Assembly (NCBI GenBank): GCA_022769085.1 | Contig: JALEKO010000036.1 | Coordinates: 1-40,612 of the forward strand | Source: Peptoniphilaceae bacterium | GTDB lineage: Bacteria; Bacillota; Clostridia; Tissierellales; Peptoniphilaceae | DNA length: 40,612 nt | Direction of reading: 5' to 3' | Part shown: positions 4,208 through 5,829 of the stretch, one piece after another | Layout: each line of letters opens with the position of its first letter | Numbering within the stretch: the stretch's first letter is position 1 | Made by a program: the position numbers and the translations under genes | Notes under the pieces: generated by a model | The model's database searches: none | Told to the model about the DNA's origin: nothing | The model's input: only the letters and a program-made list of their open reading frames with translations

Positions 4208-4236
4208 TTGACAAATTTTATGCTTTTTGCTATTAT
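4208..4236 (+). promoter_or_regulatory. Sigma-A-type promoter of the SCIFF locus
   Basis: TTGACA at 4208-4213, a 17-nt spacer and TATTAT at 4231-4236. This is an almost ideal housekeeping promoter. It predicts transcription starting near 4243 and a leader of about 22 nt before the peptide gene. Confidence 0.85.
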
Positions 4237-4264
4237 ATAAACATAAGTTAATAAGGAGATTGTT

Positions 4265-4414
4265 ATGAAGAGAATTATTACTTTAAACACAAGAAACCTT
4301 CACAAATCTGCAAAAAAAGGTGGATGCGGAGAATGCCAAACATCTTGCCAATCAGCTTGTAAAACAAGTTGCGGAGTTGCTAATCAGGATTGTGTAAACG
4401 AAAAAAATAAATAA
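4265..4414 (+). CDS. scfA: Six-cysteine ranthipeptide precursor (SCIFF)
   Basis: A 49-residue peptide starting at ATG 4265 behind AAGGAG (4253-4258). The N-terminal half is basic and lacks cysteine; six cysteines follow at positions 21, 24, 28, 32, 36 and 43 in the conserved 'CGECQTSCQSACKTSC' core. This is the SCIFF (six cysteines in forty-five) family, nearly universal in Clostridia. A radical SAM enzyme modifies it by making Cys-to-alpha-carbon thioether links (ranthipeptide). The maturase gene follows 44 nt downstream. The residue after the fifth cysteine, a Thr in the precursor whose cross-link has been mapped, is Gly37 here. The biological role of SCIFF peptides is not settled. Confidence 0.96.
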   Translation: MKRIITLNTRNLHKSAKKGGCGECQTSCQSACKTSCGVANQDCVNEKNK

Positions 4415-4419
4415 ATTAT

Positions 4420-4446
4420 AAGGAGCTTAATGCTCCTTGTTTTTTT
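4420..4446 (+). terminator. Intrinsic terminator/attenuator between scfA and scfB
   Basis: Stem AAGGAGC (4420-4426) / GCTCCTT (4432-4438) with a 5-nt loop, followed by G and seven T. It sits 5 nt after the peptide stop and 12 nt before the maturase start. It probably stops most transcripts, so the peptide is made in excess over the enzyme. Confidence 0.8.
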
Positions 4447-4458
4447 GAAAGGAAAATG

Positions 4459-5829
4459 ATGATTCACCAATATAAATTAAAGGGTTTTAATATTGTAATT
4501 GATGTTTACAGTGGTTCTATTCACATTGTAGATAATATAACATATGATATTATTGAAAATTTTGAAAATTTTTCAAAGGATAATTTAAAGATTTTCATAA
4601 AAGATAAATATAATTTAGAAGATGACGCTTTTGAAGAAGCTTATAATGAAGTGCTAAATCTAAGGGATGAAAATACTCTTTTTTCTAAAGATGAATTTTC
4701 ATCTTTGGCTTTTGATATGGAAAAAAGGACAACTTATCTTAAAGCTTTATGTTTAAATGTAAGCCATACATGTAATTTATCATGCGATTATTGCTTTGCA
4801 AAAGGCGGAAAATATAAAGGAAAAGAAGCTATAATGAGCTTTGATATTGCAAAAAAAGCAATTGATTTTTTAATTAAAAATTCAGGTTTTCATAAAAATT
4901 TAGATATTGATTTTTTCGGAGGAGAACCTCTTTTAAATTTTGATGTTGTAAAAAAGACGGTTGATTATTGTAAATCAATCGAAAAAGAAAATAATAAGAA
5001 ATTTAATTTTACTTTAACTACAAATGGAATGTTACTTGATGATGATGTAATAGATTACTTAAATAAAAATATGAAAAATGTAGTTCTTTCACTTGATGGT
5101 AGAAAAGAAATTCATGATAAATTCAGAACTACACTTTCAAATAAAGGATCATATGATATAATAGTTCCTAAATTTAAAAATTTTGTAGAAAAAAGAAAAG
5201 ATAAAGAATACTACGTAAGGGGAACATTTACTGCAAATAATCTTGATTTCACAGAAGATTTAAAAAATTATTTAAATCTTGGATTTAAAAGAACATCTAT
5301 GGAACCTGTAATTGGAAAATGGGATGATGAATATTCTATTAAAGAAGAGCACCTTCCAAAAATTTTCAATGAATATGAAAAACTTGCACAAATGCAAATT
5401 GATGCAACTGATAATAATGATGAATTTATTTTTTATCATTATATGATGAATCTGGAAGAAGGACCATGCGTGCAAAAAAGAATTTCAGGATGTGGTTCTG
5501 GAAGTGAATATATGGCTATAACACCAACTGGTGATATTTATCCATGTCATCAATTTGTGGGAGATGAAAATTTTAAAATAGGTAATTTAGACAATGGAAT
5601 TGAAAATAAAAATTTAATTTCTAAATTTAAAACTTGTAACACATATTCTAAAGAAGAATGTAGAAATTGTTGGGCAAAAATGTATTGTTCTGGCGGTTGT
5701 GCAGCAAATAATTTTCACTCTACAGGAGATATAAAGGGAGTTTATAAGTTATCCTGCGATATTTTTAAAAAAAGAGTTGAATGTGCTTTAGTTGTTAAAT
5801 GCTACCAGTTTTTAAAAGAAAATTCTTAA
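4459..5829 (+). CDS. scfB: SCIFF radical SAM maturase (thioether-forming)
   Basis: A 456-residue radical SAM protein. The N-terminal RiPP-recognition-like region (residues 1-90) opens 'MIHQYKLKGFNIVIDVYSG', the usual SCIFF-maturase start. The SAM cluster motif is C105-x3-C109-x2-C112. The C-terminal third is cysteine-rich ('GCGSGSEYMAITPTGDIYPC', 'CNTYSKEECRNCWAKMYCSGGC'), a SPASM-type domain holding auxiliary 4Fe-4S clusters. It would install thioether links on the peptide encoded just upstream. Two ATGs are adjacent (4456 and 4459). The second is chosen because the AAAGGA site lies 5 nt before it and because it matches the family N-terminus. The 3' end overlaps the convergent comF gene. Confidence 0.95.
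   Translation: MIHQYKLKGFNIVIDVYSGSIHIVDNITYDIIENFENFSKDNLKIFIKDKYNLEDDAFEEAYNEVLNLRDENTLFSKDEFSSLAFDMEKRTTYLKALCLNVSHTCNLSCDYCFAKGGKYKGKEAIMSFDIAKKAIDFLIKNSGFHKNLDIDFFGGEPLLNFDVVKKTVDYCKSIEKENNKKFNFTLTTNGMLLDDDVIDYLNKNMKNVVLSLDGRKEIHDKFRTTLSNKGSYDIIVPKFKNFVEKRKDKEYYVRGTFTANNLDFTEDLKNYLNLGFKRTSMEPVIGKWDDEYSIKEEHLPKIFNEYEKLAQMQIDATDNNDEFIFYHYMMNLEEGPCVQKRISGCGSGSEYMAITPTGDIYPCHQFVGDENFKIGNLDNGIENKNLISKFKTCNTYSKEECRNCWAKMYCSGGCAANNFHSTGDIKGVYKLSCDIFKKRVECALVVKCYQFLKENS

Follow-up and report, generated by a model that had tools for sequence, protein, structure and literature searches.

The scfA–scfB gene pair described here probably (we put the probability at about 0.6) encodes a ranthipeptide system in which a thioether ring runs from Cys32 to the γ-carbon of Thr34, and the glycine that the peptide carries at position 37 would mark a lineage of single origin, passed between bacterial families as a precursor–enzyme pair. 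By analogy with CteB, the radical SAM/SPASM enzyme ScfB would bind the leader of ScfA and most likely join the two ends of a C-K-T segment, Cys32 and Thr34. Since the proposed acceptor is Thr34, Gly37 would leave the acceptor in place. The Gly37 lineage would have arisen once from a Thr37 ancestor, probably via Ser37 and together with changes in ScfB, before the pair was handed on. The pair lies in a 40,612-nucleotide stretch of DNA from a Peptoniphilaceae bacterium (contig JALEKO010000036.1), hereafter the window.

The precursor gene encodes a peptide of 49 amino acids, MKRIITLNTRNLHKSAKKGGCGECQTSCQSACKTSCGVANQDCVNEKNK, with cysteines at positions 21, 24, 28, 32, 36 and 43. In a profile search it matches TIGR03973 ('six-cysteine ranthipeptide SCIFF') with 83.4 bits (E 7.7e-24, cut-off 50), a score far beyond chance. 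As is expected of a SCIFF precursor, its six cysteines fall within about 45 residues and a maturase gene adjoins it, scfB starting 41 nt downstream; the first-pass annotation, which had read the peptide as a SCIFF with Cys32, Cys36 and Gly37, is thus borne out. The peptide departs from the Thr37 (CteA-like) type in having Gly37. SCIFF peptides as a whole are not defined by Thr37, which is absent from 62 of the 366 cores compared below. The features of the locus are:

4208–4236, forward strand: promoter-like TTGACA-17-TATTAT with a TG extension, lying upstream of scfA and agreeing with the consensus at 11 of 12 positions
4253–4258, forward strand: ribosome-binding-like AAGGAG before scfA (read from the sequence)
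4265–4414, forward strand: scfA, SCIFF precursor of the Gly37 type (open reading frame and TIGR03973 match)
4358–4360, forward strand: Cys32 codon, the thioether donor as mapped in CteA according to reviews (PMC8326336, PMC8172795)
4364–4366, forward strand: Thr34 codon (ACA), proposed acceptor (Thr34 in all cores compared)
4373–4375, forward strand: Gly37 codon (GGA; read from the sequence)
4418–4440, forward strand: terminator-like hairpin and T-run between scfA and scfB (z -3.72)
4456–5829, forward strand: scfB, radical SAM/SPASM SCIFF maturase of 457 aa, Gly37-clade type (TIGR03974, CteB match and trees)
4768–4770, forward strand: ScfB Thr105 codon, clade-diagnostic, immediately before radical-SAM Cys106 (ScfB alignment)

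With 21 promoter-like sites in the region against 17.0 expected, the one upstream of scfA is weak evidence on its own. A terminator-like hairpin with a T-run is present in 239 of 315 scfA–scfB gaps, compared with 16 of 315 after mononucleotide shuffling (one shuffle each), and may act by attenuation to set a high precursor-to-enzyme ratio. The window's genome, a draft of 58 contigs that is 81.6% complete, yields a single TIGR03973 match, and a PDB sequence search with the peptide returned one match only, at chance level (E 0.35).

ScfB scores 703.8 bits against TIGR03974 (cut-off 425) and matches CteB (5wgg) with E 2.9e-160. It has the radical SAM CX3CX2C motif and SPASM cysteines: Cys106, 110, 113, 338, 346, 364, 402, 405, 411 and 415 align with conserved cysteines, each of these columns being Cys in 97 to 100% of the enzymes of either peptide type, and by analogy they are presumed to ligate the clusters. 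The nearest named relative that a search with it brought up, from a Tissierellia bacterium metagenome bin, is 70% identical.

Among known systems, CteA/CteB (thermocellin, Clostridium thermocellum) is the same kind of gene pair. The window's ScfB can be aligned with CteB over nearly its full length (residues 2–450), and the donor Cys32 and Thr34 of CteA are both present in the window peptide; however, CteA has Thr37 (as described in PMC8326336 and PMC8172795), and CteB has Asp and Glu where the window's enzyme has Thr105 and Phe437. Tte1186a/Tte1186 of Caldanaerobacter likewise comprises a SCIFF precursor with a Cys32 donor and its maturase, but by review description its ring was mapped to Thr37, which the window peptide lacks (PMC8326336, PMC8172795). 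ScfB is also related to the ScfB-related maturases of NF040492 (561.9 bits, below the cut-off of 855); those are orphans, whereas the window's enzyme has an adjoining peptide gene.

The position of the SCIFF ring is disputed. According to two reviews, Cys32–Thr37 was mapped in vitro both for Tte1186a (Bruender 2016) and for CteA (Grove 2017), and co-expression of CteA with CteB in E. coli (Hudson 2019) gave a Cys32–Thr34 bond at the γ-carbon (PMC8326336, PMC8172795); a C-gamma Cys–Thr bond is also given for CteA, with no position, in PMC11002830. The reason for the discrepancy between in vitro and in vivo acceptors is called unclear in PMC8326336. The Cys32–Thr37 ring cited in the first-pass annotation therefore agrees with the in vitro mapping of Tte1186a and CteA and is incomplete as regards CteA in vivo. 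Earlier work is described in PMC8172795 as having found a strict donor–acceptor spacing; the related maturase PapB is reported to tolerate spacings of zero to six residues in vitro (PMC9413430), and similarly loose spacing in vitro could explain the assignment of the SCIFF ring to Thr37.

We compared 366 SCIFF cores, which come from 359 genomes in 273 genera and 177 families and form a non-random sample, drawn from whole-genome searches and fetched stretches and found mostly with the peptide model. It comprises all matches of the family search, the 30 best each of the class and phylum searches, one genome for most matching families, the most divergent matches and 20 further loci, 16 of them chosen partly because their families or relatives were suspected of carrying Gly37; L003 and L338 were excluded as not SCIFF. 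Residue 34 is Thr in all 366 cores. Nearby positions vary: at residue 37 there are 304 Thr, 59 Gly, two Ser and one Ala; Cys36 is kept in 356 cores and replaced by Leu in five, Ser in four and Ile in one; and Cys32 gives way to Ser in six cores and is kept in the other 360. As an internal control, Thr26 of the same C-x-T-S-C motif (24–28) varies as well: it is Thr in 269 cores, Ala in 47, Asn in 20, Ser in 19, Val in 10 and Gln in one. All four ACN codons are used for Thr34, and Ser35 is encoded by TCN in 320 cores and AGY in 46; the underlying DNA is therefore diverse. Thr34 is nonetheless not singled out as an acceptor by its invariance, because the whole block of positions 28–31 and 33–35 shows no variation. 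This block includes residues without any known ring role.

In the comparison at position 37 that the first-pass annotation had proposed, Gly37 turned out to be common: its 59 cores represent 37 genera and 22 families, which rules out a sequencing oddity. Of 100 genomes sampled from the family to which the window belongs, 87 carry a SCIFF, which is of Gly37 type in 23 of the 87 (10 of 35 genera). No genome among the 359 has both Gly37 and Thr37 kinds among its extracted cores. Ala39 accompanies Gly37 in 59 of 59 cores, as opposed to 89 of the 304 with Thr37 (Fisher p 2e-27, kinship ignored). Could the invariance of Thr34 be an artefact of searching with the peptide? We reject this, as a search anchored on ScfB agrees: it gave 11 loci, one of which is truncated where its contig ends, and the other 10 each have an adjoining peptide. 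Thr34 is present in every one of these peptides, along with Gly37 in six and Thr37 in four, although they number only 10 and at least one locus (L367) apparently belongs to a genome already counted (G032, same core).

Speaking for Thr34 as acceptor, then, are its constancy, the variation at residues 32, 36, 37 and the control Thr26 and, by review description, the mapping of CteA made in E. coli; speaking against it are the near-invariance of Thr37 elsewhere and, by review description, the in vitro mapping to Thr37 in two systems. Once the Gly37 and Ser37 cores are set aside, Thr37 is found in 304 of 305, so that it must matter there. On the simplest reading, the window peptide can form its ring without Thr37; elsewhere Thr37 may contact the enzyme, with Asp105 of ScfB as a candidate partner that we only infer, or serve as a second acceptor under some conditions. 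The first-pass annotation had offered a different acceptor, glycine α-carbon chemistry or an absent ring to explain Gly37. The first of these fits best, Thr34 being present in the window peptide as in every core compared.

The second, an α-carbon thioether on Gly37 itself, has in its favour only that in vitro work on other SCIFFs, as the reviews describe it, placed the acceptor at this residue number. We regard it as extremely unlikely. The CteA bond sits at C-gamma, as described in PMC8326336, PMC8172795 and PMC11002830, and glycine lacks that carbon. Moreover, leaving aside its own model, ScfB scores better against models of enzymes that form non-alpha thioethers (PapB, 289.9 bits; QhpD-type, 266.7 bits; both below cut-off) than against that of the sactipeptide maturase RumMC (127.8 bits), and these scores argue against the window's system being a sactipeptide with an α-carbon thioether. 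PapB, with its precursor PapA, makes freyrasin and shares the ranthipeptide maturase class with ScfB (PapB cut-off 340); freyrasin, as described in PMC8326336, has six Cys–Asp bridges at C-beta, unlike the ring proposed here.

Six cores lack Cys32: two each in G019 and G085, where Cys36 is lost too, and one each in G541 and G442. All six keep Thr34 and Cys24-x-Thr26, and the ScfBs alongside keep their cluster cysteines. Thr34 may therefore be kept for a reason other than the Cys32 ring. These loci also raise the third option, that the window peptide has no ring at Cys32 and that ScfB forms another bond (for example Cys24–Thr26, which has the same spacing) or none at all. This is very unlikely: the window peptide has both Cys32 and Thr34, and Thr26 varies across the family.

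Several further loci depart from the common pattern. The Cys32-less loci are L080 and L081 (genus g20, Cys36 also missing), L270 (G541) and L339 (G442); a SCIFF match was missing from four of the six g20 genomes searched. Both Ser37 peptides still possess six cysteines, thanks to an additional one close to the C-terminus. Precursors with a double leader–core unit in one reading frame occur at L039, L080, L081, L135, L209 and L212, all of Gly37 type, and this trait requires two changes on a tree of 97 ScfBs in which five of the six genomes are represented. Cys36 is replaced by Leu or Ile at L256, L317, L329, L346, L352 and L364 (six genomes of four families), which retain Cys32, Thr34 and Thr37. 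The sole Ala37 core (L196/G322; L408) has no ScfB within about 10 kb, and none was found in the stretch fetched from a congeneric genome with Thr37. The same holds for the fetched stretches of 37 SCIFF loci (e.g. L071, L102 and L119), some of them cut by a contig end; at some loci that have no adjoining ScfB, the enzyme may lie elsewhere in the genome.

The history of the Gly37 type was followed on trees of ScfB. A FastTree tree of 320 ScfBs (52 partnered with Gly37, 266 with Thr37 and two with Ser37 peptides) takes in 320 of the 359 genomes, the others having ScfB not nearby or too short. The Gly/Thr37 state changes once on this tree, and all 52 Gly37-partnered enzymes form one clade with support 100; on a more careful tree of 30 ScfBs there is again one change, in 100% of 200 bootstrap trees. 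Repeated independent flips from Thr to Gly37 are thus rejected. By contrast, a quick RpoB tree of the same 30 genomes requires nine changes, eight of them forced by starred branches, and is close to what shuffled labels give (mean 10.0 changes; 174 of 500 shuffles as low for Gly37). Note that these genomes were picked to have both kinds within mixed families, so that the nine changes do not amount to a rate. In each of six mixed families, Gly37 and Thr37 genomes are RpoB sisters with support 99 or 100. Given nine changes on RpoB and one on ScfB, scfA and scfB have probably moved jointly between families, a simpler account than the sorting of two old kinds with much loss. Trichococcus palustris (L368), a member of the Bacilli, has a Gly37 scfA–scfB pair, the ScfB of which scores 743.6 bits against TIGR03974 and is 56% identical to that of the window.

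As for the direction of the switch, in a quick tree of 97 ScfBs the Ser37 enzymes of G541 and G442 branch off in succession, with the Thr37 enzymes of family f28 on one side of them and the Gly37 clade on the other (supports 99, 82 and 99). In both peptides Ser37 is encoded by AGC, which fits a path from Thr through Ser to Gly by single-base steps. ScfB residue 105 along the same grade is Asp (G541), then Gly (G442), then Thr.

Residue 105 is one of several that separate the two kinds of enzyme. It is Thr in 50 of 52 Gly37-type and Asp in 244 of 266 Thr37-type ScfBs. Column 437 is Phe in all 49 Gly37-type rows that have a residue there and never Phe in the Thr37 type, which has Glu or Gln; column 327 is Tyr in 52 of 52 as against Phe in 238 of 266, column 348 Ser in 49 of 52 as against Ala in 228 of 266, and column 394 Cys in 49 of 52 as against 27 of 266. 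At column 409 all 52 Gly37-type enzymes have Leu or Met, the Thr37 type having mostly Phe or Tyr. Type-separating columns are weakly enriched within three residues of the presumed cluster cysteines (p about 0.02 for every one of four nested cut-offs, with the ligands set by ourselves from the conserved cysteines).

Taken at face value, this pattern would suit a lineage-specific chemistry, in which Thr37-type enzymes, mostly with Asp105, can take Thr37 as acceptor in the way seen in vitro, and the Gly37 clade, with Thr105, has been retuned to another acceptor or ring. Thr37 is nearly universal outside the Gly37 and Ser37 cores, the switch to Gly37 falls at the same point of the tree as a set of ScfB changes that are fixed or nearly so, several of them beside presumed cluster cysteines (105, 348, 409, 437), and residue 105 shifts stepwise along the Ser37 grade. 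We nevertheless consider this explanation doubtful. The switch happened once, so the changes in enzyme and peptide type constitute a single, unreplicated pairing; the enrichment near the cluster cysteines is weak; 22 of the 266 Thr37-type ScfBs do without Asp105; and CteA, itself a Thr37-type peptide, was mapped in vivo to Thr34, as described in PMC8326336 and PMC8172795. It is also unlikely that the Gly37 lineage is functionally split, with an active site retuned on its stem (Thr37 to Ser to Gly), cross-links other than that of thermocellin, and a ring relocated in some Cys32-less or double-unit members or near relatives. We thus retain a Cys32–Thr34 ring as the probable product of the window's pair.

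Among the matches listed in the open-licence literature, we found no ring measurement or mass spectrometry of any Gly37 SCIFF. Although Gly37 proved common, mapped identical rings in Gly37 peptides, which would have undercut the oddity seen by the first-pass annotation, were likewise not found among those matches, the titles and abstract openings of which do not mention a Gly37 lineage. A text search of open-licence papers for an eight-letter SCIFF core motif, run as three strings, gave 62 papers with one or more of the strings; the 20 listed are off-topic to judge by their titles, and the whole motif occurs in none, since a paper containing it would have matched all three strings and ranked at the top.

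With the acceptor mapped to Thr37 in vitro and to Thr34 in vivo, a Gly37 peptide together with its own enzyme offers a clean test of the dispute, because natural Gly37 peptides cannot use a Thr37 side chain. Finally, clear ScfA homologs have been described as all appearing functionally equivalent (PMC5300114, 2017); in view of the co-inherited Gly37 clade, this equivalence deserves another look.
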